A stretch of DNA of 64,000 bases from assembly GCA_903844735.1 (NCBI GenBank), contig CAIMUX010000119.1, forward strand, positions 1 to 64,000, written 5' to 3'. This DNA comes from Candidatus Eiseniibacteriota bacterium. Its GTDB lineage: Bacteria; Eisenbacteria; RBG-16-71-46; CAIMUX01. The translations under genes and the position numbers were made by a program. Every line of letters starts with the position of its first letter. The first letter of the stretch is position 1. This document shows positions 25,754 to 45,349 of this stretch, in pieces. The notes beneath the pieces were generated by a model. The model was given only the letters and a program-made list of their open reading frames with translations. It did not search any database and was not told the origin of the DNA.

Positions 25754-27128
25754 CTACTCAAACCTCAGAGCCTCCACCGGATCCAGCCTGGAAGCCCGGT
25801 ACGCCGGGTACCACCCGAAGAAGATTCCGATCCCCCCGGAGATCCCGAGTGCTAAGGCAATCGCCCCCGGACTCACCGCCAGCGGGGCGTGGAAGAGCGC
25901 CGAGACCACCCCGGCCAGGCCGTACCCGAGCCCGATCCCGAGCACCCCCCCCACCACCGTCAGCGTCACCGCCTCGGTAAGGAACTGTCCAAGGATGTCG
26001 CGCCGCCGCGCCCCCAAAGCCGCGCGCACGCCGATCTCCCTGGTCCTCTCTCGCACCGAGACCAGCATCATGTTCATAACGCCGATTCCGCCCACGAGGA
26101 GACCGATGGAGGAGAGCAGGATGGTGACGAGGAAGAACACCCCGGTGAGTTTATTGTACAGATCCATAAGCTCCGCCTGCGACGTGATGCCGAAGTCGTC
26201 AGGCTGGTCGGCCCGCACGCCGCGGCGGCGGCGCAGCAGCTCGGTGATCTCATCGCGCAGCGGTTCCACGCTTTGCGGCCCGCGCGGGCGGATTACCATG
26301 TAGTCGACGATCTGGCCGTAGTTCCATTGCCGCGCGAGGAGGGACAAGGGGAAGACCGCGAAGTCGTCCTGATTCTGGCCGAGGAGCTTCCCCTTCGCCT
26401 TCAGCACCCCGACCACGAGAAAGCGGTGCCCGTCGTAGTCCACCCACTGCCCCACGCCGCTGCCGGAAGGAAACAGCACGCCGGCCGGTCCGGCTCCTAA
26501 GACGCAGACCGGCGCACGGTGCTTCACTTCGTCGTCCGTATAGAGGCGTCCGGCCTCCGGCTCCCAGCCGTTGGCCTCGGCGAACCCGCCGGTCGCACCC
26601 ACCAGCGTCAGGATGGAGCTCTTCACCCCCCCTGCCTTCAGGTATCCCATGTCCTGGATCTCGGGCGAAACCCCGGCCGCGGAGGGGCAGAACTCGGCGA
26701 TGGCGACGGCGTCGGCCACGACCAGATCCTTCCGCGGCTTGCGCGGCCGATCGTCGCCGAAGTGGACACCCGCCTCGTACTTGCTCACGTAGAGCACGCC
26801 CGAGCCGAGGCTCGCGATCTGCTTCTTGACCGTCCCATTTAGCCCGCCGATGACCGCCATCATCGCGATCACCGCCCCGACGCCGATCATCAGCCCGAGC
26901 AGCGTGAGCATGGAGCGCATCTTCGTCGAGACGAGTGCCTCGAGCGCCATCTGGACATTCTCTCGCAGGAGCGATGTTTGTGCGGGTGCGAGCGCACCCG
27001 AGCGAACGCCGCGGGCCGAACTACCGAAGCCGGCCAGGCGCTGATCCGCACCCGTCGGCGGTTCTCCACTCACGGACCGGTCCCCACGCACCGGACGGCC
27101 GGCACCGCTCGCGGATCCGGGGTTTCTG

Positions 27129-27139
<11 letters not shown>
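25754..27139 (-). CDS. MacB-type ABC transporter permease (second)
   Basis: A 461-residue inner-membrane permease of the MacB/FtsX (type VII ABC) superfamily. It has one N-terminal membrane helix (MRSMLTLLGLMIGVGAVIAMMAV), a large periplasmic domain (about 110-330), then three helices with the conserved NMMLVSVRERTREIGVRAALGARRRDI loop. It ends PVEALRFE, as MacB proteins do. The ATG at 27139 overlaps the first permease's stop by 11 bp and leaves an unusually long 60-residue hydrophilic leader; a later, unrecognised start is possible. It is the last gene of the TolC-adaptor-ATPase-permease-permease run and probably pairs with the first permease as a heterodimer. Confidence 0.9.
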
Positions 27140-28352
<1,213 letters not shown>

Positions 28353-28392
28353 GCGGATCCCCGGCCCCCGGGGCGCGCAGCCCCGCGGGCGT

Positions 28393-29127
28393 TCACGCGG
28401 CTCCCCCCGGCTGGGCGCCCGGCGCCAGCCGTTCGTCCGAGGCGATCCTTCCATCGCGGATGCGAACGATGCGCAGCGCGTGCCGAGCCACGTCCTCTTC
28501 GTGCGTGACGAGGATGATGGTGTTCCCGCCCCGATGCATCTCGCGGAACGAAGCGAGGATCTCCTCACCGGTGGCGCTGTCGAGGTTTCCGGTCGGCTCG
28601 TCCGCGAGGATCAGGCTCGGTCTGGTGACCAGGGCGCGTGCGATCGCGACACGCTGGCGCTGCCCACCGGAAAGCTGGTTCGGCCGATGGTGCGCACGAT
28701 CCGTAAGGCCGACCCGCTCCAGCGCTTCCTCTACACGAACCTTCCGCTCCGCCGCGGGCATGCCGCGGTAGATCAGCGGCAGCTCGACATTGCCGCGGGC
28801 TGTAGCCCGCGGGAGAAGATTGAAGGTCTGGAACACGAAGCCGATCTCGCGGTTGCGGATGGCGGCCAATTGGTCTTCGTCCAGCGACTCCACGCCGCGC
28901 CCGGCCAGCCGGTAGTGACCCGCCGATGGGGTGTCGAGACACCCGATGAGGTTCATCAGGGTCGACTTGCCCGAACCGGATGGCCCCATGATGGCGACGA
29001 ACTCACCCGGATCGATGCGCAGCTCAACATCGCGCAGAGCGTGGACGAGCTCCTGCCCCACCTCGTAAGTCTTGCCGATCCCCTCCATCAGGATCAACGC
29101 CTCGCACGCGACCTCCGCCGTCGTCAT
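28393..29127 (-). CDS. ABC transporter ATP-binding protein (MacB/LolD type)
   Basis: A 244-residue cytoplasmic ATPase with Walker [11 protein letters not shown]-loop FQTFNLLPR, signature [15 protein letters not shown], Walker [13 protein letters not shown] and H-loop LVTHEED. The '[15 protein letters not shown]' text is characteristic of the MacB/LolD/FtsE clade. The start is ATG 29127, overlapping the adaptor stop in ATGA, so translation is coupled to the periplasmic adaptor. It powers the two permeases that follow 40 bp downstream. Confidence 0.96.
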
Positions 29128-30443
29128 GACACCTTCACCGAAATCTTGCCCTTGCCGGCTTTGTCCTTCTCCGGTCTCGCGACGTCACCATCCTTCAAAG
29201 CTCGAAGCACGCGATAGGGACCGATGATCACCTTGTCGCCCGGCTTGACTTCACCGGCGACCTCGACATCGGTGTCGCCGCGCAGGCCGAGACTCACCGG
29301 CACGAAGACCGCCTTGCCTGACCGGAGCAGGAACAGCCCTTCCACGATCTTCTCGTTCACCCCGGCCTTCGTCGTATCCGCAGCCTGGGCGAGTGCTCGC
29401 CGCGCCTTTGATTTCGGCGGGTGGGCCCGCCACTCCTGCCACCGCTTCCAGACCCTTTCCGGCTGCGCCGTGAGCGCCTGGATCGGCACGACCAGGGCGC
29501 TGTCCTTCTCGCCGGCGAGAATCTCCACGTCCGCGCTCATGCCCGGTCGCAGCCCTTCGGGGGGGGTGTCGATGCGGACCTCGACGGCAAAGTTCGTTGC
29601 CTGCTGCTGCGTCGACTGCCCGCCGCGGCGACCGGACATCCCAACGGTGGTCACGGTGCCGGCCAGGACCGAGTCCTCCCACGCGTCGACGCGCACGCGC
29701 GAGTGGAGGCCGGGACGAATGCGCACCACATCGGTCTCGTCGACCTCCGCCTCTACCTGCATGGTGTCCAGGTCGGCCACGGTGAGGATCACGGTACCGG
29801 GGTTGTTCATCGTGCCGGTCATGACGTTCTCGCCTTCCTCGACGTTCAGCGCGGTGATCACGCCATCGAGGGGGGAGCGAAACACGGTCTCGTCGAGGTT
29901 CTTGCTGGTTTCGGCAAGGGTGGCGCGCCGGCCACTCAGGTTCTCGCGCGAGGCCGAGACTCGGGCTTCGGCGACTTTCACCTCGGTTCGCGCCGACTGC
30001 AGAGACTCGTCGGATGTGAGCGACTCCTCGAAGAGCTTCTCCTGGCGGGTCAGAGTCTGCCGCGAGAGGTCGAGTTGCGCCTCCGCCAGGTCGAGGTCGG
30101 CCTGCGCCCCTTGCAGCGCCGCCCGCATCGCCGAGCTGGCCGAACGATAGCGCTCGTCATCGAGAACCAGCAAGAGGTCACCGCGCCGCACGCGGTCTCC
30201 CTCGCGCACGGCCAGGCCACGCACGCGCCCCATGATATTCGAGGAGACCTGGACGAGCCGTTCCGGCTGGACCTTGCCCGGGGCGCGCACCCATGACTCG
30301 ACACGTCCCTTTTTCACGTCCTCGACGCGAACCCCCGCCGGCCGTGGTCCGCCGCCCTTCTTGACGCCGATCACCACGAAGATCGCCGTGAGCAGCACAG
30401 CCCCGGTCACGATCCAGGGCCAGACGGCCCTCCGCTTCGTCAT
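29124..30443 (-). CDS. Periplasmic adaptor (HlyD/MacA family)
   Basis: A 439-residue membrane-fusion protein bridging the inner-membrane ABC unit and TolC. ATG 30443 follows GGGGGGAATCG. It has one N-terminal membrane anchor ([20 protein letters not shown]), a split lipoyl domain ([29 protein letters not shown] ... [20 protein letters not shown]), a coiled-coil hairpin between them (about 85-180), a beta-barrel domain, and a C-terminal extension with a Lys-rich tail ([18 protein letters not shown]). It follows tolC by 22 bp and overlaps the ATPase start. Confidence 0.93.
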
Positions 30444-30465
30444 CGATTCCCCCCGCATCACCGCG

Positions 30466-31917
30466 TTACCGCAGCGGACCGCCCACGGCCCGCTCGAGCG
30501 CCGCCTCGCCCAGGTGGTAACTCGCCTCCGCCTCCACCACGGCCACCTTGGCCCGCGTCAGTTCGACCTGAGCATTGTTCCACTCCAGGAGGGTGCCGCC
30601 GCCGGCCTCGTAGAGCGCCTTTTGCAGACGTGCGCTCTCCTCGGCGAAGTTCACCCCTTCCCGCGCGGAGCGAATCCACTCCGAGGCGTTCTTGAGCCCG
30701 AGGAGCGATTCGCGGATATCCAGGGCGACCTGCAGGCGCTGCTGCTCTAGCGCTCGCTCCTTCCCGCGCCGGTCGGCGATCCCCCGCTGGATCGAGCCTT
30801 TGGTCTGTAGGCCGTCGAAGAGAGTCTGGCTGAGGCCGATGGAGAACCCCCAGCGGGCGTCCCTGTCCGGGTCCGAAAAGAGGGGTCCCACAGATTTGTC
30901 GTGCTGCTTGGAGTAGGAATAACTGCCACCGAGGGAGGGGTAGCGCTGGGATCGCGCCGCTCGCTCGCTACTCAGGGCCGCTTCGAGAGAGGCCGCGGCA
31001 CGCTGCAAGTCGGGACGCTGCCGCTCGGCGCGCGCCCCCAGCTCGGACTCCGCCGGCATCGGCGCCGTCTCGTCGACCGGTGCGGGCGGCTCCACCTCCA
31101 GCCGGGAATCGACCGGCAGAGCCAGCATCATCGCGAGGCGGGCGCGCTCCTGCTCGATCCGGTTTTCGGCCCCGATCTTCTCGCGTTCGGCGGTGGACAG
31201 GTTGACTTGCGCCTGAAGGACATCGCTCTTCGCCACCGACCCGAGTTGGAAGAGCGACTCAGCCCGTCGCTGCTGCTCCGTCCGCAGCGTGTAGGAATCC
31301 TGCGCCACCCGAGCAAGTTCCTGGGATTGGGTGAATGCGTAGTACTGCTGCTTCACCGCCAGGACGATCGACTGCACGGCGTCATCAAAGCCGTGGCCGG
31401 CGGCGACCAGAGACTGCCCCGCCCCGCGGAACGAATAGAGGGACGGCAGGTCGACCAGGTTCACTCCCCCGCTCACGCCCAGCGAGTAGCTGTCCTGGGT
31501 CCCTCCGGTGGTGACGAGCCGCTGCGTCTCGGGGTTGACGCCGGAATACTTCTGCGTGTTGCGGCTGAAGCCCACGCTTCCCTGCAAGTTCGGCAGCAGC
31601 CCGGCCCAGGCCGAAGTCCGTCCGCCGCGGGCCATCTCCCACGACTCCCTGGCCTGCGCCACCTGGAGGTTGCGCGTGGTCGCCAGTCCCACGATCTCGT
31701 TCAAGGAAAGCGGACGGGTCAGGTCCGGCATCGAGACCTCCTGAGCGCGGGCAGTCCCGATCGCCAAGAGCAGCGCCGCTGCCACAGCCAGCGATGCAGC
31801 AGCCGGCAGGGCAGCAGGCGGCGATGGAGCAGTCGGCGGCACCGCTCGGCCGCGCCCGGCCCGGAATACTGTCCAACCGTGGCGCGCCATCCGGCGCGCG
31901 GTCATCGTCAAGGGCAT
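30466..31917 (-). CDS. TolC-family outer-membrane efflux channel
   Basis: A 483-residue outer-membrane factor. The ATG at 31917 follows a strong GGAGGAGGATCCG site. A long Arg-containing signal region ends in LAVAAALLLAIGTARAQE. The mature part shows the two duplicated helix-strand blocks of TolC: LSLNEIVGLATTRNLQVAQARESWEMARG with an aromatic-rich barrel strand, then RPDLQRAAASLEAALSSERAARSQRYPSLGGSYSYS, WGFSIGLSQTLFDG and coiled-coil helices. It is the first gene of the exporter run, followed by adaptor, ATPase and two permeases, so it likely provides their exit duct. It lies 360 bp downstream of the exbD pair on the same strand. Confidence 0.92.
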   Translation of the reverse strand: MPLTMTARRMARHGWTVFRAGRGRAVPPTAPSPPAALPAAASLAVAAALLLAIGTARAQEVSMPDLTRPLSLNEIVGLATTRNLQVAQARESWEMARGGRTSAWAGLLPNLQGSVGFSRNTQKYSGVNPETQRLVTTGGTQDSYSLGVSGGVNLVDLPSLYSFRGAGQSLVAAGHGFDDAVQSIVLAVKQQYYAFTQSQELARVAQDSYTLRTEQQRRAESLFQLGSVAKSDVLQAQVNLSTAEREKIGAENRIEQERARLAMMLALPVDSRLEVEPPAPVDETAPMPAESELGARAERQRPDLQRAAASLEAALSSERAARSQRYPSLGGSYSYSKQHDKSVGPLFSDPDRDARWGFSIGLSQTLFDGLQTKGSIQRGIADRRGKERALEQQRLQVALDIRESLLGLKNASEWIRSAREGVNFAEESARLQKALYEAGGGTLLEWNNAQVELTRAKVAVVEAEASYHLGEAALERAVGGPLR

Positions 31918-32112
31918 CGGATCCTCCTCCACATCTCGAAAATCACTCGGGCCCCGCCGAGGGGCGGCCCCGGGACGGCCGGGATTATAGCCCCGCCCGA
32001 CCCCCAGGCGCACCTGCTGTCTCGGGCAGGGGGCGCCCCCCGAAGGGGGCACGCGGGCGCGGGAGCCATACGGCCCGGGGACACCGTCGGTTGCGATCAC
32101 CGGAAAATTCCC

Positions 32113-32232
32113 TTCCGAACGGACGCGATGGGGACAACTCGGCGCGCCCTCATTCCGAACGGACGCGACGGGGAGGACTCGGCGCGCTTGCGTCTCGAAC
32201 GGGCTCGAAGGCGATGACCCGGCTCACCTCCA
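32113..32232. repeat. 40-bp tandem repeat upstream of the tolC-like gene
   Basis: Three degenerate copies with a 40-bp period in the leader between exbD and tolC. Copies 1 and 2 share CCGAACGGACGCGA, GGGGA and CTCGGCGCGC; copy 3 keeps CTCGAACGGGCTCGA. The period is not a multiple of three and no gene spans it. Its position suggests a possible influence on the exporter promoter; nothing in the sequence proves that. Confidence 0.75.
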
Positions 32233-32274
32233 CCCCGGGATCTCCCTGGCGCACCGCCATTCGGGATTGCCCCA

Positions 32275-32688
32275 TCAGCGCGACCGTCGGTCGGGCTGCA
32301 CCGTGAAAGATACATTCCGGGCGCCGGATCGCTTCAATTCCTCGATGACCGCATCGACGCGGGCGTATGGAACCTCACGGTCCACCGTCAGCCCCACCAG
32401 CAGCGCCGGGTTCTCACGCAATAGACGAGCCAGCACTGGACGCAGTTCGGGCACCGTGAGAAGAAAGTCATCTACCGAGAGACTCCCGCGCGCGTCGAGA
32501 TAGACGTGGGTGGCCAGGCGCCGTGGCACCGGCACGCCCGCTTCGGCACGTGGCAGCGTCACCGGCAGACCGTTCTCCATCCGGAAGATCGTCGTGGCCA
32601 TGAAGAAGATCAGCAGGAGGAAGGCGATGTCGGCGGTCGAGGCTGTGGGTATCCAGGCCTCCACACGAACCGGTCGCTTCCAACGCAT
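32275..32688 (-). CDS. ExbD/TolR-family protein (second copy)
   Basis: A 137-residue proton-channel partner. It has a short basic cytoplasmic start (MRWKRPVRVEAW), one membrane helix (TADIAFLLLIFFMATTIF) with the essential Asp in 'ADIAFLLLIFF', and a periplasmic domain (VYLDARGSLSVDDFLLTV ... VGLTVDREVPYARVDAVIEELKRSGA) of the ExbD fold. The start is ATG 32688 with GGGAGA upstream. With ExbB it would form a stator that uses the proton gradient to energise outer-membrane processes. Two different ExbD genes after one ExbB are common where TonB-type and other users share the stator. Confidence 0.93.
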   Translation of the reverse strand: MRWKRPVRVEAWIPTASTADIAFLLLIFFMATTIFRMENGLPVTLPRAEAGVPVPRRLATHVYLDARGSLSVDDFLLTVPELRPVLARLLRENPALLVGLTVDREVPYARVDAVIEELKRSGARNVSFTVQPDRRSR

Positions 32689-32732
32689 GCGGTAGTCTCC
32701 CTTCCTTCAGCCCGCACGAAACGATGAGGGCC

Positions 32733-33137
32733 TTAGTACCGAGCCGGGCGCAGCGCGATTCTCTCCGCGCGCGCGAGTTTCACCGCATCCAGGATCCACA
32801 CCATCACCTCGTAGCGAGCTGCGGGGTGGGTCTCCACCGAGACGACGAGGTCGGGGTTGTCGCGGAGCCGCGCCTCCACGCGGGCGCGGACCTCGCCCGG
32901 TTCGGTGGGAACGCCATCGACGGTGATGCGCCCCTGCGCATCGGCGGCAACGGAGACCAGTTTGTCCTGGTGCAACCGAACCGGCGGCACGCCCGTCCCC
33001 GGCAGGACCAAAGGCAACCCCCGCTCGGTGTCGAACACCGTGGTAGCAATGAAGAAAATCAGCAGCAGGAAGGCGATGTCAGCCAATGTCGCCTGCGGGA
33101 TCACCGGCACCGGTCGGATGCCTCCGCGGATCCGCAT
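32733..33137 (-). CDS. ExbD/TolR-family protein (first copy)
   Basis: A 134-residue paralogue of the next gene, with the same membrane motif (LADIAFLLLIFFIATTVF, essential Asp) and a periplasmic ExbD domain ending KLARAERIALRPARY. Its ATG (33137) shares one base with the exbB stop (TGATG), so the pair is translationally coupled. The two ExbD proteins are only partly alike in the periplasmic half, implying different partners. Confidence 0.93.
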   Translation of the reverse strand: MRIRGGIRPVPVIPQATLADIAFLLLIFFIATTVFDTERGLPLVLPGTGVPPVRLHQDKLVSVAADAQGRITVDGVPTEPGEVRARVEARLRDNPDLVVSVETHPAARYEVMVWILDAVKLARAERIALRPARY

Positions 33138-33961
33138 CAGGAGGCCTCGGGGGGGCCCGGCCGGCGCTCGATCTCGTCCACCAGGTCAAGTGCGCTCTCC
33201 TCCATCTCCACGATGAAGCGGTCGATGCGAGAGACAAAGTAGTTGTGGAACCCCTGGATCGGGATGGCAATGCATAGTCCCGCTTCGGTGGTGATGAGTG
33301 CTTCCGAAATGCCGGATGCCACGAGTTTCGCGCTCACCTGGTCAGCGGCGGCGATGGCGTCAAACGCGTGAATCATCCCCGACACCGTGCCCAGGAAACC
33401 GAGCAGCGGCGCAATGTTCGCCACCGAAGCCAGGACGATGAGCCCGCGCTGCAGAAACGAGACCTCGATACTCCCGGCGGCTTCGATCGCCTTCTCTACA
33501 GCGGCCGGTCCCTGTTCGGACTTGAGAAGCCCCGAGTGGAGGATGGCGGCCACCGACCCCCGCGTCTTCTTGCAGGTCTGGAGGGCGGCGGCGACACCGT
33601 CCTGCCGCAGGTTCTCGACGACCCGCGCGATGAACTGGCGTGTGTCGGTCGTGGCACGACGCAAGGCGATCCAACGCTCGATAGCGGCGGCCAGCCCAAG
33701 GACGGAGCATGCGAGGAGAGGCCACATGAAGATCCCACCTCGCCGGAACCACTCCCAGAGCCCTGGAGAGGGGTGGTAGGCCGGCATCGCAGTCGGCGTG
33801 GCAACCGGCCCCTCCCGGACTGCCCCCGGGGATGTGGCCCCGACCGTGATGGAGGTCTGCGGGGTCACAAGGGCCGTTTCCGCGCGCAGCGGTCCGGTCG
33901 CTAGCCAGGCGACGACCAGCAGCGCCAACAAGATCCACCGGGAAGCGGGGCGTGGCATCAT
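33137..33961 (-). CDS. ExbB/TolQ/MotA-family proton channel protein
   Basis: A 274-residue protein starting at ATG 33961 behind GGAGGAGAGAAAACCG. It has a signal-like N-terminus (WILLALLVVAWLATGPLRAE), a Pro/Thr-rich periplasmic segment, then the TolQ core: RRGGIFMWPLLACSVLGLAAAIERWIAL, a cytoplasmic loop, GLIVLASVANIAPLLGFLGTVSGMI and the third helix LITTEAGLCIAIPIQGFHNYF. The extra cleavable-looking N-terminal segment is typical of the longer ExbB branch. It is transcribed divergently from the TPR gene, so promoters for both lie in 33962-34252. Confidence 0.93.
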   Translation of the reverse strand: MMPRPASRWILLALLVVAWLATGPLRAETALVTPQTSITVGATSPGAVREGPVATPTAMPAYHPSPGLWEWFRRGGIFMWPLLACSVLGLAAAIERWIALRRATTDTRQFIARVVENLRQDGVAAALQTCKKTRGSVAAILHSGLLKSEQGPAAVEKAIEAAGSIEVSFLQRGLIVLASVANIAPLLGFLGTVSGMIHAFDAIAAADQVSAKLVASGISEALITTEAGLCIAIPIQGFHNYFVSRIDRFIVEMEESALDLVDEIERRPGPPEAS

Positions 33962-37347: not shown

Positions 37348-39057
37348 TCACGCCTCCAGCGCCGCCAGAATCGCGTCCACCGCCCCGACGAGATCATCCG
37401 CGACCGCCCAGGGCGGCCTCATCGTCTTCTCTGCCCCACTCTCCACGCGGTCCACCCCGGCGGCGATCGCCACCTCGGTCTCGCTGTCGTAACGGGCCGT
37501 TCCAGCAGCAATCGCAACCTCTGTCTCGCGCCCATAGCCGGTGCGAACGAGAATGACGCGGCAGCCCGCGCGTCGCCCGGCCTCGAGGTCGGAGTGGGAA
37601 TCGCCGACCATCACGCTGCAAGCCAGATCAAGGTTGAAGCGATGCGCCGCGCGCCTGAGCATCCCGGGCGAGGGCTTGCGGCAATCGCACGGTCCGCCGT
37701 GTTGCGGATGATGCGGACAGAACTCGATTCCCACCGGCCGCACCCCTTCCGTTTCAAGCAGACGGAGCATCTGCAGGTGCACGCGGAAGAGCCCGGCGCG
37801 GTCGAGCATCCCGCGCGCCACCGCGGACTGGTTGGTCACCACCACGAACGGCAGGTCGGCAGCAGACAACCGCCGCAGAGCCGCCCCGGCACCGGGCGCG
37901 AGACACACCCGGCCAGGGTCGCGCAGGTAGGGCACCAGGTCCAGAAGCACCCCGTCGCGATCGAGGAACACAGCCGGCCGGCCACGCCTGCCTTCGGTGC
38001 GGACGAGGAGTCTTTCGAGCGCGCCGCGCACCTGATCGACGGTGACTCCGGTGAGGCACTCCACCCGGGTGGGGCAGCGTGGTGAGAAGCAGGGCGCGCA
38101 CGGAACCGGCACCCGCAAGGTCTCCTGGCAACCGCCGACGGGGCCGGTCCATTCCGGCGCGGTGGAGCCGAAGATCCCCACCACCGGCGTCCCCGCAGCC
38201 TGGGCCAGGTGCATCGCACCCGAATCGTTGGCCACCGCGGCACGGAGGCCCGCGAGGAGCGCCACTGATCCGCGCAGCGAGACCTCGCCCGCGGCCACCA
38301 CGCCGCCACCTGCCGCTTCCGCCAGACGGCGACAAGCGGCCCGCTCATCGTCACCGCCGATCCACAGCACGTGCCGGCGCGAAGCGAGAAGATCTCTGGC
38401 CAACGCGAGAAACCGCTCCTCCGGCCAGCGCTTGGTCGAGCCGTAGCTCGCCCCCGGCGCTAATGCGACAGTCCGCGAAGGATCCAGGCCGCGATCGATC
38501 CCCCACGTCGTCGCCCACGCGATCTCCTTTGGCCGCAGGGCGACCCGAGCGGGTCCCTCATTGGGCGGAGACAGTGAGCGGCCAGGGGCGATTCTGTCCA
38601 ACAGAAGCGCGGCCAACGCGCGGTATTGATCGCGCAGGTGCCGCGCGCGGGAGGCCGGCGCGCCGGGCACGTTGAGAAGCAGCGAGCGGCTGTCCCCCGG
38701 CATCCCGGCCCGAATCGGAATTCCCGCCGCGGTCGCCATCAGCACCGACGAAAACGACGGCGGCAGCAACAGCGCGGCACCGGCGTGTTCCCGGCGCAGA
38801 CTTGCTGCGATGCGCAGGAATGCCCCGGGTCGGGACACACGAACGGGCAGCGGCGGGAGCAACCGAAAGGGCTCGTCGAGCCCCTCGAACAGAGGCCGAG
38901 CGCGAGCTCCCCCGAGCAGAAGCCACTCCACCTCGGGCAACGCCGAACCGAGGGCAAGCACGGACGGCAGCGCCATCACGGCATCGCCGACCCAGTTGGG
39001 CAGGCGCACCACGATGCGGCCCGCGGGCCACGGCGCGTCGAGCGAGAAGGCGCTCAC
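37348..39057 (-). CDS. Heptosyltransferase (GT9)-heptose bisphosphatase (GmhB) fusion
   Basis: A 569-residue protein joining two steps of LPS inner-core heptose metabolism. Residues 1-355 are a GT9 ADP-heptose:LPS heptosyltransferase of the WaaF type: RLPNWVGDAVMALP, ALAPGASYGSTKRWP, NDSGAMHLAQAAGTPVVGIFGST and the cysteine-rich CAPCFSPRCPTRVEC. Residues about 361-569 are a HAD phosphatase of the GmhB type: FLDRDGV (364-370), VVVTNQSAVARG, the zinc loop CPHHPQHGGPCDC (447-459), RKPSPGML and VMVGDSHSDLEAG. GmhB removes the 7-phosphate of heptose-1,7-bisphosphate. Both active sites look complete. The start is GTG 39057, overlapping the upstream stop in GTGA. It has a 15-residue in-frame repeat near the end. 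Confidence 0.93.
   Translation of the reverse strand: MSAFSLDAPWPAGRIVVRLPNWVGDAVMALPSVLALGSALPEVEWLLLGGARARPLFEGLDEPFRLLPPLPVRVSRPGAFLRIAASLRREHAGAALLLPPSFSSVLMATAAGIPIRAGMPGDSRSLLLNVPGAPASRARHLRDQYRALAALLLDRIAPGRSLSPPNEGPARVALRPKEIAWATTWGIDRGLDPSRTVALAPGASYGSTKRWPEERFLALARDLLASRRHVLWIGGDDERAACRRLAEAAGGGVVAAGEVSLRGSVALLAGLRAAVANDSGAMHLAQAAGTPVVGIFGSTAPEWTGPVGGCQETLRVPVPCAPCFSPRCPTRVECLTGVTVDQVRGALERLLVRTEGRRGRPAVFLDRDGVLLDLVPYLRDPGRVCLAPGAGAALRRLSAADLPFVVVTNQSAVARGMLDRAGLFRVHLQMLRLLETEGVRPVGIEFCPHHPQHGGPCDCRKPSPGMLRRAAHRFNLDLACSVMVGDSHSDLEAGRRAGCRVILVRTGYGRETEVAIAAGTARYDSETEVAIAAGVDRVESGAEKTMRPPWAVADDLVGAVDAILAALEA
37438..37527. repeat. 45-bp in-frame duplication inside the heptose fusion gene
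   Basis: Two 45-bp copies encode ETEVAIAAGTARYDS and ETEVAIAAGVDRVES back to back, near the C-terminus of the phosphatase domain. The copies differ mostly at synonymous sites in the ETEVAIAAG half. Confidence 0.9.
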
Positions 39058-41252
39058 GGGGTACCGCCGACATGCTTCGTGCCTCCCGCGAGCTGGGCCA
39101 GCACCGACTCGATTTCCGCCCGGCGCGGGGTTGAGGGGTCGAGCGCCAGCGTGCGGCGCAGCGCGGCAGCGGCAGCCTGCTTCTTGTCAAGCCCAAGGAA
39201 CACGCGTGCCAGCTCGTAGTGGACCGGCGCATAGTCGGGGCGGAGGCTCGCCGCCCGCAGCAGATATCCCTCGCCGCGTTGGTAGACGCCCTGGGCAGAG
39301 CACGCGCGCCCATAGTTCAGGAGAAGCTCGAAGGAGTTCGGCGCCCGCTTCAGCCCCTCATCAAACGCCTTCGCGGCCGCGGGGAGGTCGCCGCGCCGGA
39401 GGAAGGCGGCCCCCAGATTGTTCCAGGCTGCGGCATTTTCGTGGTCCCACACCGTCGCCGATCGGAAGATCTCCTCCGCGAGCGACAACTGTCCCGCTTC
39501 GAGATAGACGCTGCCAAGGCGCGAGAGAAACCAGGTGCGCTCCGCCCTGGGACGCAACTCGGCGATCTCCGTTTCCGTCAGGGGACGGCGCCATGGCGAA
39601 TCGTCGGGGATCCGGTAGAGGCGGGCGCCGTCATCACCCCGACCCCACTCGCGCACGAGTCGCCCTTCGCGTTCCACCGCAGAATAGAAGGCGCGCGGAC
39701 CGACGGCATCAACCCGTGCAAGGTTCTCGCTGACGCGCGCCCCGGAGAGAAGCACCCAGCGAAAGCCGGCGTACCAGCGGTGCCAATAGAGATCGTCATA
39801 ACGTCCGGGGGTGCGGCTGTCGCGCGGCAGGAACAGATAGCCGGCGTTCGCGCCGGAACTGTCCGCCCCGGCCGTGACGAGCGAAGCCGCTGCCGTGGTA
39901 GACACAGTCCCCGCCGTGACAAACGGGTCCGTCTCGGCTATAACCAGCTCTCCTTTGGGCACGAACGTCCCGATCTCGGCCCCGACCGCGGCGAGCGACA
40001 GCGCCCCCGAGGCAGTGCCGCGCTGCCACGCCACGCGCCCCGGAATCGCGGAAACGACGAAAGCCAGCGAGAGAATCACCCCGAGTCCGGCGAGCCCGCG
40101 TCGTGGCGAGACGAGAGACAACACACCACCGACCGCCCACGCCGCCAGAAGCGGAGCCACGCTCCACTGAAGCGCGCCGGGCCGGCGGACACCAAGCAAG
40201 ATCGGCACTCCGAGACAGAGAACCACGGCTCCCGCCGGCACCAGAAAGCGCGTCGCGTTGCATCGATAGCGCCACGCGGCGCGGGACGATCCATGCGGTG
40301 TCACATCCGACCTATTGGTTCGCGCCCGCGACGGCCGGTCGGCCCATACCGCGGCCGGCCAACCGGCCCACACCAGCGGTCCGAACGCCATCGTCAAGGA
40401 AAGCAAAGAGAACCAGCCCAGCCCGCCCGGGCCGTCGAGCCCTCCTTCGCGCCGCCACTCCCCCACGAACCGGCTGGGCGCAGCCAACGGATGAAGAAGA
40501 CGTTCCGGCGTCAACCCCACAGCGAGAAAGAGAGCAATCCCAACGGTCCACGCCAAATCCGCTCTGTCCGATCGATTTGCGCCAGGGAAGGAACGCGACG
40601 TGCGCCGCGCTACCGCCAAGAGCACGAGCGGCCAGAGGTACCCGAACCAGGCCAGGAGCATTCCGGCCAAGAGCCCCTTACGCCAGGACTCAGGTGCGCG
40701 CAGTAGCAGAAAGAGGAGGAGCGCGGCGGGTACCGCAGGAAGCAGGTGCGCGATCGCGGTGGCGGCAAAAGGCGAGACCGCGAGCAACGCGGCTGCTGTG
40801 ATGCCGATACGCGCTCCCGCATCCGGCGGAAACCATGCCGTCAGGCTCCGACGGAATGCCGGGGCGCTCTTCTCTCGCCTGTCGTCGCCGGTCGCGGCGA
40901 TCGCGAACGTCGCCGCCTCCAGGAGAACCAGCGCCAAGAGCCAGGCCCACAGACCACGCAATATTGGAGTCCAGGTGCCGGTGGCCGCCGGGGGGCGGGC
41001 TGCCTGAGCCTCGCCGGGCTGTACGAGTTCTCGCACCATCTCCGCCGCCGCGACCGGGTAGGCGATCCAGGTGGTCCAGGTTGGAGGCCGCTCTGCCAAC
41101 TCGCCGGGGGGAAGGGAACCCAGGATCCGGACCGCGGGGTCGAGATAACGCCGTGCGTCGATCGTGCCGGTGGGCGGCGCGGCCCACAGCAGAGGAATGG
41201 CCGCCAGCGCTGCCGCCAGGAGCTTCCAGGGTCGCCATCCCATCCGCCCCAT
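39054..41252 (-). CDS. Polytopic membrane protein with C-terminal TPR domain
   Basis: A 732-residue protein. The first two-thirds have about ten hydrophobic helices with Trp/Pro-rich loops. The last 200 residues are TPR repeats (TWFLSRLGSVYLEAGQLSLAEEIF, AAWNNLGAAFLRRGDLPAAAKAFDEGLKRAP, HYELARVFLGLDKKQAAAAALRRTLALDP). A globular segment (VIAETDPFVTAGTV ... GYLFLPRDSRTPGRYDDLYWHRWYAGFRWVLLS) sits between. The layout recalls GT-C type glycosyltransferase-like membrane proteins, but I see no catalytic acidic motif, so enzyme activity is not supported. Start choice: ATG 41252, just after the barrel gene's stop; GTG 41267 or 41270 and ATG 41243 are alternatives. It is coupled to the heptose fusion (GTGA). 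Confidence 0.75.
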   Translation of the reverse strand: MGRMGWRPWKLLAAALAAIPLLWAAPPTGTIDARRYLDPAVRILGSLPPGELAERPPTWTTWIAYPVAAAEMVRELVQPGEAQAARPPAATGTWTPILRGLWAWLLALVLLEAATFAIAATGDDRREKSAPAFRRSLTAWFPPDAGARIGITAAALLAVSPFAATAIAHLLPAVPAALLLFLLLRAPESWRKGLLAGMLLAWFGYLWPLVLLAVARRTSRSFPGANRSDRADLAWTVGIALFLAVGLTPERLLHPLAAPSRFVGEWRREGGLDGPGGLGWFSLLSLTMAFGPLVWAGWPAAVWADRPSRARTNRSDVTPHGSSRAAWRYRCNATRFLVPAGAVVLCLGVPILLGVRRPGALQWSVAPLLAAWAVGGVLSLVSPRRGLAGLGVILSLAFVVSAIPGRVAWQRGTASGALSLAAVGAEIGTFVPKGELVIAETDPFVTAGTVSTTAAASLVTAGADSSGANAGYLFLPRDSRTPGRYDDLYWHRWYAGFRWVLLSGARVSENLARVDAVGPRAFYSAVEREGRLVREWGRGDDGARLYRIPDDSPWRRPLTETEIAELRPRAERTWFLSRLGSVYLEAGQLSLAEEIFRSATVWDHENAAAWNNLGAAFLRRGDLPAAAKAFDEGLKRAPNSFELLLNYGRACSAQGVYQRGEGYLLRAASLRPDYAPVHYELARVFLGLDKKQAAAAALRRTLALDPSTPRRAEIESVLAQLAGGTKHVGGTP

Positions 41253-41278: not shown

Positions 41279-44200
41279 TCAGTAGTCCAGCCCGAACGAG
41301 AAGTAGCCTCGCGCCGGTCCGAGATTGCGGGCGAGGTCGGTACGCCAGGCCAAGTCCCATTTCAGGACTGTGAACCCGACATTGAGGCTGGCGGTGACAC
41401 CGTAGGAGGCACGTATATCCTCAAGGTGAGGCACTCCCTTTCGCACCCGTATGCCCTGAAACTTCCTCGTGTCGTCCCATGCCGCCCCCGCGTCGAAGAA
41501 GAAGGCACCGCGAACACCGCCCAGGGCTATCGGCAGCGGGAACCCGATCCGCAGGTAGTCGATGAGCGGGACACGCAGCTCCACGCTGCCGAGGCCGATC
41601 GTCGTGCCGCGGAACTCGCCATAGGGCCAGCCGCGCAGCGTATAAGGGCCGCCGATGCGGAAGTACTGAGGCTCGTCCCCCATGCTGGTGGCGGCGATGG
41701 CGCGCCCGGCGAAGGCGTAGCGGTGGCGAATGTTCAGGTAGCGCCTGGTGTCGGCGACGCAGGTCTGATAGGAGAGGTCACCGATCGCGGCCTCCACGCT
41801 CAAGCGGCTGCGTCCTCCGGCAATCGGCCCCGTCGGTCCGAAGACCGTGTTGTCGCTCACCAGCGCGGTACCCGGGACAAGATAGACCCGCGTTTTCGCC
41901 TGCAGGCCGCGGTTGGCGTCGAACGAGTAGCTATCCTGCACCACGTCCTCCGACACGGCGAGCGCGTCGAGCGACCACTCCACGCGCCGGAAACGGCTGA
42001 ACGGCCGCTGTAGGGCCAGGCTTCCGCCGCGATAGACTTGGCTGACGAACTCCTCGTTCTCCTGCGCGGCAAAAATGTAGTAGTCGTTGCGGTACTGGAA
42101 GGCGCTCGCTCCCCAGTTCAGTCGCCGCCGCAAGTTCACATACTGGAAGAGCAGGTCCGAGTCGGCGATGCTGCCGTAGATGTTGGCCCCGATGACAATC
42201 ATCTGGTCGCCCAGCACATCGGAGAACTGCAGCATGCTTTGGGCCGCAACGCCGACATTGCCGGCAAAGAAGCCGTTGGCGGATACATAATCGGCGGCGA
42301 AATGGGTCCGGTAGCGATCGACCCGGAAGCCGCCGGAATCGGGCAGCACGCGCCGGCGCTGCATGACCGCACGGATCTCCACGACTTCGTCGGAGGAATC
42401 GGAATCGGCGGGAAGCGGACGGTAGACGCCCGGAAGCCGCCGCCCATTTCGTCGCGGGGAGGAAGTCGGCACCCTGATCGCGAGGAGCGAATCCAGACGC
42501 GCCGCTGCCGGCGCCCGCGAGGCTGGATAGGCGAACAGCGTCGATACGGCTTCGGAATCGGGCACTGCTCCGGGTGACGTCTCCGCGGGAACCGGCACGG
42601 TGGCTGTCGCTCCGGTGGGAAGCGGCACAGTGGCTATCGTTCCGGCAGGAACCGGCGCACCGGCCGAAGTGCGATACCCCGAACCCACCTCGGTACCGGC
42701 GGCAATCGGATACGGGCCATCCCAGCGCACGCCGTCCTTCCAGCGATCCAGCGGATCCTTGATGGCAAAGAGGTCGGTCGTTCCCTCGGTGAATGCGGTG
42801 AACACCACGCGGCGCCCGTCGCGTGACAGCGAAGCCGCAGGACTCGTTTCGGTCACTCCGGCAATGCCGCTGAGAACGTCCGTGATGCGCCGGTCCTCGT
42901 TCGTATCGAGGTCGCGAATCCACACATTGGCGATGCCGCTGCGATCGGAGAGGAAAAGCAGGTACCGCCCGTCGGGAAAATAGAACGGGCTGATGTTCGT
43001 ACCCGCCTGCGCCTCCAACACCGTGACGGCACGGGTGGCGAGGTCAAGGATGGCGAGCCGTGACTCAGAGAAAAGCAGGTTCCCGAAATCAGCCTCGACC
43101 CCTTGGTCGGTGACGAAGACGATTCGTTTTCCGTCCGGTGAGTACCGCGGCTCCTGGGCGAGATAGCGGTCATCCGTAAGCCTCTCGAGGCCGGTCCCGT
43201 CGGAGCGAATGCGCCATAGGTCACTGCGGCCGCCACTCTGCCCGCTGAAAACAATCCATGCCCCGTTCGGGGAAAAGGCAGGGCTCTGGAGTCCGTCGAG
43301 GTCGGGGGAAATCCTGCGGAGCACCTTTCCGTCGGCGGCACGCTGGACGGTGAGGACGTCGCGCCCGTTGTCCACCGCGACAAAGACCATAGACTCTCCG
43401 TCAGGTGACCAGTCCATGGCGCTGCGAAAGAAACGGAGGCTCTCGAAGTCGGCCCGCCGTTCGCTCTTCACCAGACGTCGTTGCACCGCGCCGGTGAGCG
43501 CCGAGGCGCAGTAGAGGTCATTGGAGAGCGCCCGGTCAGAGAAATAGGCCACGAGATCTCCGTCGGGCGAGACGGCGGGTGTGCAGTTCAGGTTGGAGAG
43601 GTCCTTTTCCGTGTCGGTGAGCCGGAACGCGAAGTCCTCGGGTTTACGGTGATCCCGGATCTGCGGCAGATACTCGCGACGCACAGCTTCGGTCCAGTCG
43701 TCGGAGAACTTCTCCAGAGTCAGCCCCACCACATCCTGGAACGTACGGTCGAGCGAGCGGAGGTGAGGAAGCCGCTTGAAGACCTTGCCGATGGTGTCGT
43801 CGCCGTAGGTGGCGCCGAGATAGGCGAGAAGCGCCTGACCGTAGCGGTAGACACGAATGTCACCCACCTGCTCGAGGACGTTCACCGGCGTGAGATAGCC
43901 GCGGAGAGCGCCGTCACGAAGCCACATCTCGGTCAGATGATCCACGCGCCCGATTGAGAGGTACTCCGCCATCCCCTCCATGAACCAAAGAGGCGGGACG
44001 TACTGCATCGGCCCGAGCAGCGATCGCTCGCCGCCGCCGGTAAGAATGTCGATCTGGAAGGCGTGGACCAGCTCGTGCGTCAGCACGTGGTCGAAGTCAC
44101 CGTAGGAACCTGTGAGCGGCACCGCGACCCGCTGCCGCGCAAACTCGGTGAAGCCGCCCGTCCCCTCGCCGATGAATTCCGGCGTGAGGTTCGTCTGCTG

Positions 44201-44551
44201 AAACTCTGCCTGCGAACCGTAAAGGACGATCGGGATCGGCCTCGTCGGCTCGTGGTCGAGAATAATGCTGAGTCGCGCCCAGGCGCGTTCCGCCATCCGT
44301 CCCGCGTCGACCGCAGCCTCGCGCAGTCCATCGCGAAAATAGATCTCGAAGTGAGCGGTCTTGAGAACCGCCCAAGTGCGGTCGCGATACTGGACTTTGT
44401 TCTGGCCGAACTGAGCGCGGGCCGGGATCGTCGCGGCCAGGATCGGAAGCAGGAACGCAACGAGAGTCACGCCGACGAGCGCAATCCGCCGCCGCCCGCG
44501 GGGGCGCGGCGCGAGGCCGGCATGGCGACGAGGTCGATCGGGCGCTTTCAT
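41279..44551 (-). CDS. Peptidase MA-TolB propeller-Omp85 barrel fusion
   Basis: A 1090-residue outer-membrane protein. The ATG at 44551 has GGGGAAGG upstream; a signal anchor (IALVGVTLVAFLLPILAATIPARAQ) ends near 47. Residues about 55-330 are a gluzincin-like 'peptidase MA' domain with HELVH (159-163) and WFMEGMAEYLS downstream as the probable third-ligand helix. Residues about 340-660 are TolB/PD40-like propeller repeats (CTPAVSPDGDLVAYFSDR, MDWSPDGESMVFVA, PRYSPDGKRIVFVTDQG, LSRDGRRVVFTAF). After a Pro/Thr-rich linker, residues about 750-1090 form an Omp85/BamA-type beta barrel (YTLRGWPYGEFRGTTIGLGSVELRVPLID ... GAFFFDAGAAWDD) ending with the aromatic signature YFSFGLDY. Each module is recognisable; the joint role (surface proteolysis or barrel assembly) is not known. 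Confidence 0.88.
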   Translation of the reverse strand: MKAPDRPRRHAGLAPRPRGRRRIALVGVTLVAFLLPILAATIPARAQFGQNKVQYRDRTWAVLKTAHFEIYFRDGLREAAVDAGRMAERAWARLSIILDHEPTRPIPIVLYGSQAEFQQTNLTPEFIGEGTGGFTEFARQRVAVPLTGSYGDFDHVLTHELVHAFQIDILTGGGERSLLGPMQYVPPLWFMEGMAEYLSIGRVDHLTEMWLRDGALRGYLTPVNVLEQVGDIRVYRYGQALLAYLGATYGDDTIGKVFKRLPHLRSLDRTFQDVVGLTLEKFSDDWTEAVRREYLPQIRDHRKPEDFAFRLTDTEKDLSNLNCTPAVSPDGDLVAYFSDRALSNDLYCASALTGAVQRRLVKSERRADFESLRFFRSAMDWSPDGESMVFVAVDNGRDVLTVQRAADGKVLRRISPDLDGLQSPAFSPNGAWIVFSGQSGGRSDLWRIRSDGTGLERLTDDRYLAQEPRYSPDGKRIVFVTDQGVEADFGNLLFSESRLAILDLATRAVTVLEAQAGTNISPFYFPDGRYLLFLSDRSGIANVWIRDLDTNEDRRITDVLSGIAGVTETSPAASLSRDGRRVVFTAFTEGTTDLFAIKDPLDRWKDGVRWDGPYPIAAGTEVGSGYRTSAGAPVPAGTIATVPLPTGATATVPVPAETSPGAVPDSEAVSTLFAYPASRAPAAARLDSLLAIRVPTSSPRRNGRRLPGVYRPLPADSDSSDEVVEIRAVMQRRRVLPDSGGFRVDRYRTHFAADYVSANGFFAGNVGVAAQSMLQFSDVLGDQMIVIGANIYGSIADSDLLFQYVNLRRRLNWGASAFQYRNDYYIFAAQENEEFVSQVYRGGSLALQRPFSRFRRVEWSLDALAVSEDVVQDSYSFDANRGLQAKTRVYLVPGTALVSDNTVFGPTGPIAGGRSRLSVEAAIGDLSYQTCVADTRRYLNIRHRYAFAGRAIAATSMGDEPQYFRIGGPYTLRGWPYGEFRGTTIGLGSVELRVPLIDYLRIGFPLPIALGGVRGAFFFDAGAAWDDTRKFQGIRVRKGVPHLEDIRASYGVTASLNVGFTVLKWDLAWRTDLARNLGPARGYFSFGLDY
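42582..42671. repeat. 30-bp in-frame repeat inside the protease/barrel fusion
   Basis: Three 30-bp units (42582, 42612, 42642) with shared GGxACCGGCACxGTGGCT-like text encode 10-residue Pro/Ala/Gly/Thr units (APVPAGTIAT, VPLPTGATAT, VPVPAETSPG). They form part of the flexible linker between the propeller and the barrel. Confidence 0.85.
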
Positions 44552-44662: not shown

Positions 44663-45349
44663 CTAGCCCATCCGCAGGACCAGTCCCAACCCCCAGAGAA
44701 GGAGCGCGGTTCCCACCGGCACCAGAAAATTGTCGGAGCCGCGACGACCCGCCGCCTCGATGAGGGTGGCCGCGATCGCAACCACCGCCACGCGGGCCGG
44801 GCCGTACGGCTGCGCGCCCGTCGTAGACGCCGTCGCCGCCCCTGCCACCCCGATCGCCAGCGCGGAGAACACCAGCATGGCCGCCGAGCCCTCGACCGAC
44901 CGCCAACCGTCGCCGGTGCGGTACCGGTGTCGACCCCAGCGCTGCCCGACGAGGGCAGCCGCCGCATCGCCCCAGGCAAGCACGAGCAGCCCGGCGCAGG
45001 TCGCGGCTTTTCCTCCTGCCACGCCCCAAAGACCGAGAATCAGCACCGTGAAGGAGAGTGGGAACCAGATGGTACCGGCGTTGGAGCCGGCCTCAGCGTC
45101 CATCGACTTCGTCCAGCGAAAGCGAAGGCTGAGGGCATTCACCAGGATGAAGAGGGCGGGCGGCGCGGCCGCCAACCAACGCGAGTGGAAGAGGAGCACC
45201 GTAGGCAGGATCCAGGTGCCGATTCCGACGTGGATGATCTTCCGCGAAAGGCCAAAGGAGATGCGGCCACCGCGACGCAGTCCCTCCGCGACCCCCACCA
45301 CCGCAGCAACCCAGACGAAAGAGAGAGCGAGCGCGAGGCCGTCGTTCAA
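44663..45349 (-). CDS. Dolichol/phytol kinase-like membrane protein
   Basis: A 228-residue protein with about seven membrane segments. It has the family entry LSRKIIHVGIGTWILP ('RKxxHxg') and the CTP-kinase loop LAWGDAAAALVGQRWGRHRY ... WRSVEGSAAM. Members of this SEC59/VTE5-like family phosphorylate isoprenoid alcohols or diacylglycerol. The start appears to be TTG 45349, overlapping the GGDEF stop in TTGA, so it is coupled to that gene. It is a distant relative of the protein at 12608-13180 and better matches the phytol-kinase branch. The substrate is unproven. Confidence 0.8.
   Translation of the reverse strand: MNDGLALALSFVWVAAVVGVAEGLRRGGRISFGLSRKIIHVGIGTWILPTVLLFHSRWLAAAPPALFILVNALSLRFRWTKSMDAEAGSNAGTIWFPLSFTVLILGLWGVAGGKAATCAGLLVLAWGDAAAALVGQRWGRHRYRTGDGWRSVEGSAAMLVFSALAIGVAGAATASTTGAQPYGPARVAVVAIAATLIEAAGRRGSDNFLVPVGTALLLWGLGLVLRMG

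Follow-up and report, generated by a model that had tools for sequence, protein, structure and literature searches.

The 64,000-nt window, the whole stretch of Candidatus Eiseniibacteriota DNA analysed here, carries at 41279..44551 (minus strand, as for all features given below; stop codon included) an intact 1090-aa open reading frame, P0001, that opens with ATG and ends in a single terminal stop; the plus-strand reading of the same interval is interrupted by stops. The encoded protein consists of a gluzincin-type zinc peptidase, a TolB-like propeller, a disordered linker and a 16-strand Omp85 barrel. The first-pass annotation had placed a peptidase with HELVH, a propeller and a BamA-type barrel in one 1090-aa protein, a reading given without a strand and confirmed by the frame itself, by Pfam and by an AlphaFold2 model built from a 45-row alignment (mean pLDDT 79.3, pTM 0.79). 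The model is confident in the peptidase, propeller and barrel regions, with residues 614–720 below 50; matches of whole-model structure searches were mostly propeller or barrel rows, and families missing there stay possible. The description of the protein as 'signal-anchored' is doubtful: judged by eye, residues 1–46 (44414..44551) probably form a cleavable Sec signal peptide, with AxA-Q and no lipobox Cys, in which the model has a helix at 21–41 of low to middling pLDDT. The FGxNK motif that follows (residues 48–52, 44396..44410; F48, G49 and N51 conserved) likely marks the mature N terminus.

Residues 57–310 (43622..44383) are assigned to a gluzincin-like zinc peptidase domain by Pfam, the AlphaFold2 model and structure comparison. 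The Pfam matches are weak (BSP, 1.9e-4; Peptidase_MA_2, 3.1e-4; each below its own cut-off), and the scan of P0001 gave neither an M48 family (E up to 1) nor PF00149, the calcineurin-like phosphoesterase family. Modelled separately, the domain reached a pLDDT of 84.8, and a Foldseek search with it gave a best E of 4.6e-6. Its structural neighbours are M9 (collagenase), M30 and M1 peptidases with Z of 13–18, including 8jt1 (Z 17.8, rmsd 3.8, 233 aligned), 7bb8 (Z 16.5) and M1 chains (Z about 14); identity to these chains is 11–16% in the rows shown, so no peptidase family is assigned. The zinc and catalytic motif HELVH (residues 159–163, 44063..44077) and the presumed third zinc ligand, E192 in WFMEGMAEY (43976..43978), were followed through a 151-row alignment spanning all four subfamilies described below and a divergent third paralogue. 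Two rows end before the motif; in the other 149, H159, E160 and H163 are H, E and H throughout. At E192, one row has a gap and the remaining 150 all have E. The presumed zinc ligands are thus conserved in sequence, in a domain that aligns to gluzincin folds, which does not bear out a protease fold with displaced ligands, and the HExxH motif, downstream Glu and fold place it among the gluzincins, clan MA(E). From these residues, the domain is predicted to bind zinc and to act as a protease. A dead-enzyme scaffold was also considered; every row covering the motif region keeps the ligands, which speaks against it, short of proving activity.

The peptidase is followed by a TolB-like PD40 β-propeller (residues 320–605, 42737..43594), recognized by Pfam (PD40, 8.3e-26), by the TolB model and in the AlphaFold2 structure, which aligns to 2ojh and 4pwz (VIA Z 26.4). 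It is not TolB itself: the equivalog score of 113.9 bits lies far from the cut-off of 343.15, and no TolB_N domain was found in the Pfam scan of P0001 (E up to 1). TolB and BamB are periplasmic propellers at the outer membrane, and the propeller here aligns to TolB with Z of 26; however, those are stand-alone proteins, whereas this one is fused to a peptidase and a barrel.

A low-complexity, disordered linker (residues 614–720, 42392..42712; pLDDT below 50), variable in length among relatives, leads to an Omp85-type barrel (residues 744–1090, 41282..42322) identified by Pfam, AlphaFold2 and VIA. The Pfam Omp85 match (2e-12, above cut-off) covers residues 810–1087, the DSSP list of the model contains 16 long strands between 752 and 1087, and the barrel aligns to Deinococcus radiodurans BamA, 8xnb (VIA Z 25.4, rmsd 4.0, 309 aligned); the barrel on which the first-pass reading depended is therefore present in the predicted structure. 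R973-G974 (41630..41635), with R and G each in 145 of 148 lettered rows, presumably corresponds to the Omp85 RG motif in loop 6 by BamA numbering, and D1020 (144 of 146 lettered rows of the 151-row alignment) to what we take to be the Omp85 barrel Asp motif. Of 90 complete rows, 88 end in an aromatic residue, resembling the Omp85 β-signal. No POTRA was detected among 22 Pfam families in 45 rows (E 0.01), and the disordered linker stands in its place. Since the 2014 survey defines the Omp85 superfamily by its barrel (PMC4104836), as described there, the missing POTRA bars a BamA, TamA or PlpD type and not Omp85 as such; sequence and model together place P0001, as a predicted member, in the superfamily.

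Described Omp85 proteins share parts of this architecture. A propeller N-terminal to an Omp85 barrel, without POTRA, is what characterizes the WD40-Omp85 subfamily named by Heinz and Lithgow in 2014 (PMC4104836), and P0001 shows exactly this order of propeller repeats and barrel without POTRA, so that the earlier claim of a novel combination was too strong. In the survey's description, the nearest propeller is TolB, the proteins are read as BamA-BamB fusions and the subfamily is counted among the patchily distributed ones; its passages on the subfamily mention no peptidase, whereas P0001 has one (PMC4104836). Compared by description only, WD40-Omp85 members are likely the same set as the three-part proteins. 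The 'Metallo' subfamily of the same survey, Omp85 with a metalloprotease domain, is defined there by PF00149 (PMC4104836), the family missing from the P0001 scan. PlpD, or type Vd, likewise joins an N-terminal enzyme to an Omp85 barrel, but as described it combines a patatin lipase with one POTRA (PMC11116518), in contrast to the peptidase and propeller without POTRA found here. A literature search reaching few subscription journals found no paper or experimental study of the three-part architecture. New here are the four subfamilies and the envelope-assembly neighbours, namely tamB, BamB-like genes next to the paralogue, tol-pal and, at the window locus, a heptosyltransferase gene.

The architecture is common in several bacterial phyla: searches with the peptidase domain matched 38 of 39 genomes of the window's class, 120 of 121 in a Gemmatimonadota sample and 101 of 148 in a Bacteroidota sample. 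The lack of a match in 47 of the 148 Bacteroidota and one of the 121 Gemmatimonadota suggests that the gene is dispensable in some lineages. Fusion of the three parts is near-obligate. Propeller and barrel accompany the peptidase domain in 167 of 169 open reading frames, where of the two exceptions L097 runs into the end of its contig and L031 has a broken frame, and all three parts occur in 39 of 39 loci picked by the peptidase domain alone; these counts rule out a chance fusion or assembly artefact. Four subfamilies were taken from the tree, which thus provides no independent test of the grouping, and the window gene belongs to subfamily I.

In the window, the next gene downstream encodes a membrane protein with TPR repeats (39057..41252) and the second a heptosyltransferase (GT9) fused to a HAD phosphatase (37351..39057); upstream lies a gene for a small membrane protein (44666..45349), whose sole Pfam match, UPF0014, is sub-threshold. 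P0001 and the two downstream genes share one strand and are 26 nt apart or overlapping, so a single operon is plausible, and to this extent the proposed operon with a lipopolysaccharide heptose enzyme stands. The further use of that enzyme as support for an assembly role holds only near the window, the heptosyltransferase being kept in three of four close-relative loci examined (L127, L128 and L129; not L126). A fixed operon partner was sought and rejected, since outside the close relatives the TPR and heptosyltransferase genes are not kept. Of the window neighbours, only ExbB/ExbD-type genes, which are paralogous matches to tolQR, recur among 79 wider loci. Genes in the window and in the relatives' loci inspected gene by gene, those of the other subfamilies included, were called by a crude codon-score caller, whose plain antisense errors affected some loci rich in G+C (L130, L138, L044 and L054 among them).

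The heptosyltransferase in the window and three of the four relatives, the TolB-like propeller and tol-pal genes lying a few genes downstream in five loci (Pfam-tested in L047 and L050) could together point to a processing protease of the Tol-Pal or lipopolysaccharide machinery, with the propeller engaging Pal-like or TonB-box-like partners. We consider this very unlikely, given that the tol-pal linkage was observed in just one set of close relatives, that no TolB_N was found in the Pfam scan of the protein and that its TolB score falls far short of the cut-off.

In other subfamilies, the neighbourhood is more telling. In subfamily II, 15 of 39 genomes of the window's class have tamB immediately upstream in the same orientation, with the domain ends of the two genes 94–241 nt apart; in the loci examined, tamB is itself preceded by genes for a POTRA-Omp85 and an M50/RseP protein. 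In subfamily III, from Bacteroidota, the order is TamB, RNase R, three-part gene; by listed coordinates the linkage occurs in at least 12 of 148 genomes, leaving out G173, in which the two genes share a contig on opposite strands, and a tamB-like gene was present in 8 of 20 loci inspected by gene listing. Nine of these 12 tamB-linked genomes have another TamB match, and in six of six inspected the other copy directly follows a POTRA-Omp85 gene, so that each kind of Omp85 seems to own a TamB. A linkage inherited within a clade counts as one event, not many. The window genome itself has its TamB on a different contig (C47) from the gene (C119), and tamB linkage was found in 0 of 22 genomes of families f1–f4 and f6–f8.

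These neighbours would also suit a TAM-type assembly or lipid-transfer module, in which the barrel is the business end and serves a TamB/AsmA-like bridge as its Omp85 partner in the outer membrane, and the peptidase and propeller are regulatory or coupling parts. The pairing of an Omp85 gene with tamB in subfamilies II and III recalls TamA/TamL-TamB (PMC4494059); as described there, however, TamA and TamL carry POTRA domains, and the operon partners it names for TamB are BamA, TamA and TamL, with no WD40-type Omp85 among them (PMC4494059). The two tamB linkages, the placement of the other TamB copy and the conserved Omp85 signature residues all favour such a module. We nevertheless hold it to be a possible but doubtful account: subfamilies I, that of the window, and IV have no tamB linkage, an RNase R gene intervenes in Bacteroidota, and invariant catalytic residues favour a working enzyme. 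In addition, Pfam does not support the linked gene equally well everywhere, with TamB found in L145, L168 and L171, AsmA only in L154 and L157, and no match in a scan of the L155 gene; the singly scanned genes leave out L149, L152 and L153.

The linker and fold also bear on which side of the membrane the peptidase might act. The shortest linkers are of 28 residues in a frame-broken row, 35–37 in paralogue rows and 59 in intact A rows (A being the window ORF), the latter two long enough that threading through the barrel may be possible, and the nearest folds are collagenases and aminopeptidases, with which a nutritional or secreted role would also fit. A long disordered linker, a fold similar to secreted collagenases and one barrel per passenger would be expected of a self-displaying, type Vd-like surface protease, with peptidase and propeller threaded out via the barrel to act extracellularly. 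Such a protease is unlikely: a plugged barrel of the Omp85 type is implied by the conserved RG position, propellers like those of TolB and BamB lie in the periplasm, and the neighbours are housekeeping and envelope-assembly genes. The enzymatic domain of PlpD, a precedent, is described as periplasmic (PMC11116518).

The reading we prefer, at about an even chance, is a Sec-exported, outer-membrane-anchored zinc protease that faces the periplasm and serves assembly or quality control, perhaps also partnering a TamB-type bridge as its Omp85 protein in two subfamilies. After Sec export, the C-terminal barrel would anchor the protein in the outer membrane with the protease facing the periplasm; the propeller, which takes the position of the POTRA domains in other Omp85 proteins, would be a docking platform for partners or clients; and the gluzincin domain might cleave clients at the membrane, such as outer-membrane proteins or precursors whose assembly has stalled or gone wrong. 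E. coli divides barrel insertion, propeller docking and BepA-type proteolysis among separate proteins; with three domains in one chain, these roles would be combined in one polypeptide. BepA, YcaL and LoiP (M48) are likewise zinc metalloproteases, described as acting at BAM on outer-membrane proteins that have stalled, but each is a protein of its own, soluble or a lipoprotein, belongs to a different peptidase family and has no barrel (PMC13067283).

The anatomy, catalytic residues, fusion, distribution and envelope neighbours are in favour of the periplasmic protease, as is the PlpD precedent as described (PMC11116518); against it stand the absence of tamB linkage for the window gene and of the gene itself from some lineages, along with the linker length and the collagenase- and aminopeptidase-like fold noted above. 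The role in outer-membrane assembly or quality control that was first proposed finds its backing in relatives, from tamB, POTRA-Omp85, rseP, tol-pal and BamB-like neighbours. The periplasmic topology, the identity of the clients and the extension of what sister-subfamily neighbours imply to the window gene are what we infer. More broadly and tentatively, the FCB group and its neighbours may possess a second, so far unrecognised outer-membrane assembly system: a POTRA-less Omp85 with protease and propeller, coupled in two subfamilies to a second TamB-type bridge of its own and in the paralogue to a BamB-like propeller, in which insertion or transfer and proteolytic proofreading would occur in one polypeptide. 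A fused family with an intact active site would make the coupling of assembly and proofreading testable, would give the additional TamB copies of Bacteroidota a candidate Omp85 partner, and would revise the view that 'WD40-Omp85' is an enzyme-free scaffold.

Profile search and hmmscan differed for two TamB-like genes: that of G090 (L157) matched TamB at 2.0e-33 in the former yet only AsmA in the latter, and G062 gave no TamB in the former yet TamB at 2.1e-16 in the latter (L145). A BamB-like PQQ gene follows the paralogue in nine of nine genes tested; L167 and L131 are paralogue loci without an adjoining gene of this kind. In Gemmatimonadota, a SPOR-domain gene adjoins the three-part gene in four of four loci tested.

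The ORF at 41279–44551 (minus strand, 1,090 amino acids) had been read from its sequence as a protease, a propeller and an Omp85 barrel in a single protein, and all three regions are present in an AlphaFold2 model built from a 45-sequence alignment (pLDDT 79.3, pTM 0.79). The model comprises a peptidase region (residues about 57–310), a propeller (about 320–605), a disordered stretch (614–720) and a barrel (752–1087). Sixteen strands had been anticipated for the barrel, and 16 long strands can be counted; it matches BamA (8xnb; Z 25.4, r.m.s.d. 4.0 over 309 aligned), and the propeller matches TolB (2ojh; Z 26.4, r.m.s.d. 2.6 over 251 aligned). Modelled on its own (pLDDT 84.8), the peptidase domain most resembles M9 collagenases (8jt1; Z 17.8, r.m.s.d. 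3.8 over 233 aligned), followed by M30 (7bb8; Z 16.5) and M1 (Z about 14) peptidases. Pfam scans detected PD40 repeats and the Omp85 barrel above their cut-offs and the peptidase at sub-threshold scores, and POTRA domains were matched in none of the 45 aligned sequences of the window protein and its relatives.

The first-pass annotation had proposed zinc ligands in HELVH and a downstream glutamate in WFMEGMAEY. Across 151 different three-part proteins aligned together, 149 rows keep H159, E160 and H163, and 150 keep E192; the only exceptions are gaps in L017 and L023, whose rows are truncated. R141 and Y235 are invariant in every row with a letter there, and E196 (146 of 150 rows) and FGxNKV at the mature N-terminus are nearly so. 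This conservation of motif residues fits a working zinc peptidase.

Searches with the peptidase-domain alignment (E 1e-10) gave matches in 38 of 39 genomes of the window's Eisenbacteria-like class. In samples of the phyla to which a Gemmatimonadota MAG and a Bacteroidetes MAG belong, 120 of 121 and 101 of 148 genomes matched, a few of the latter weakly (about 1e-17 to 1e-25); MAGs with Latescibacterota, Zixiibacteriota and KSB1 in their titles contributed individual loci as well. Of 169 ORFs that contain the peptidase domain, 167 have all three domains, the other two being cut by a contig end and by a broken frame. Most of these loci had initially been picked by means of the complete protein, so that loci picked by the peptidase domain alone make a fairer test; the full set was found in 39 of 39 of them. 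The window's genome encodes two paralogues with all three parts: the second copy lies on contig C126, and the third, which is divergent, on C5. This third paralogue (locus L139, 8081–11659) carries HELTH and WFIEGN.

Trees from FastTree (151 rows) and IQ-TREE in quick mode (64 rows) both gave four groups, each with support of 100 in the latter. Subfamily I contains the window gene, Gemmatimonadota, Latescibacterota, Zixiibacteriota, KSB1 and seven Bacteroidota; subfamily II, among rows in the tree, the Eisenbacteria-like families f9–f11; subfamily III mostly Bacteroidota; and subfamily IV the second copy, from several phyla.

Neighbour surveys used crude gene calls, and every count has shared ancestry behind it. 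The subfamily II gene is immediately preceded by tamB in the same orientation in 15 of 39 genomes (94–241 nt between domain ends), namely in 15 of 17 genomes of families f5, f9, f10 and f11 versus 0 of the 22 others. At two loci (L132 and L133), Pfam confirmed TamB and an Omp85 gene with POTRA domains ahead of the barrel gene, together at L132 with an M50/PDZ (RseP-like) gene. In subfamily III, the order TamB/AsmA-like gene, RNase R, barrel gene was found in 8 of 20 Bacteroidota loci and, by listed coordinates, tamB-like linkage in at least 12 of 148 genomes (2.2–2.7 kb between domain ends). The intervening RNase R gene was seen at L168, L171, L155, L157 and similar Bacteroidota loci. Nine of these 12 genomes have another TamB match, and in 6 of 6 genomes examined this other copy comes after a POTRA-containing Omp85 gene. 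In subfamily IV, a PQQ/BamB-like gene comes next, as Pfam confirmed for all nine of the neighbours checked, which represent four phyla (L134–L137, L160, L161, L166, L173 and L175), and no such gene was found on inspection of L167 or L131.

Downstream of the window gene lie a TPR gene and a heptosyltransferase gene. Both are kept in close relatives L127, L128 and L129; L126 has the TPR gene alone. The heptosyltransferase gene (37351–39057, minus strand) encodes a GT9 domain (1.2e-33) together with a HAD-type phosphatase domain, a fusion that may unite two heptose steps in a single polypeptide. Elsewhere, tolQ-tolR-tolA-tolB-pal-like genes lie two genes further downstream in five loci (three Latescibacterota-titled, two Gemmatimonadetes; L047 and L050 tested by Pfam). 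In Gemmatimonadota, a SPOR-domain gene directly follows the barrel gene in 4 of 4 loci tested by Pfam (L068 11501–12715, L081 11429–12844, L060 11456–13045 and L074 11457–12707), and its relatives occur in 40 of 80 loci of a related-locus search. By eye, the SPOR-domain proteins of L060 and L081 have a lipoprotein-like N-terminus; the remainder of these proteins looks propeller-like, SPOR being the only Pfam match.

We propose that the protein would be a protease anchored in the outer membrane and oriented towards the periplasm, the propeller occupying the position of POTRA domains. The periplasmic topology is inferred from the gene neighbours, from TolB and BamB, and from the PlpD enzymatic domain, shown to be periplasmic (PMC11116518). 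BepA provides an example of a zinc protease able to act at BAM on outer-membrane proteins that have stalled (PMC13067283). The boldest reading is an additional TAM-like system equipped with a TamB and a protease of its own. It finds support solely in subfamilies II and III, whereas the window gene is a member of subfamily I, and we consider it less likely than not.

PF00149 is a phosphoesterase family. It is the basis on which a ‘Metallo’ Omp85 subfamily was termed metalloprotease by Heinz and Lithgow (PMC4104836), in whose survey WD40-Omp85 is one of ten Omp85 subfamilies and is likened to a BamA–BamB fusion. Hanson and colleagues describe the WD40-like members as poorly characterised. In the literature searched, including passages of a TAM evolution paper, nothing was found about a peptidase in the WD40-Omp85 subfamily or about a link to tamB; the family-wide enzyme and genomic context therefore appear unreported in the searchable literature.

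Other genes of the window include another secreted peptidase-like protein (23610–25421, minus strand) with HEYHH followed by WWMENVATF and, by eye, a FlgD-like C-terminal tail. Also by eye, 25757–33961 (minus strand) holds an ABC exporter set of two MacB-like permeases, an ATPase, a membrane-fusion protein and a TolC-like protein, followed by two ExbD-like genes and one ExbB-like gene.
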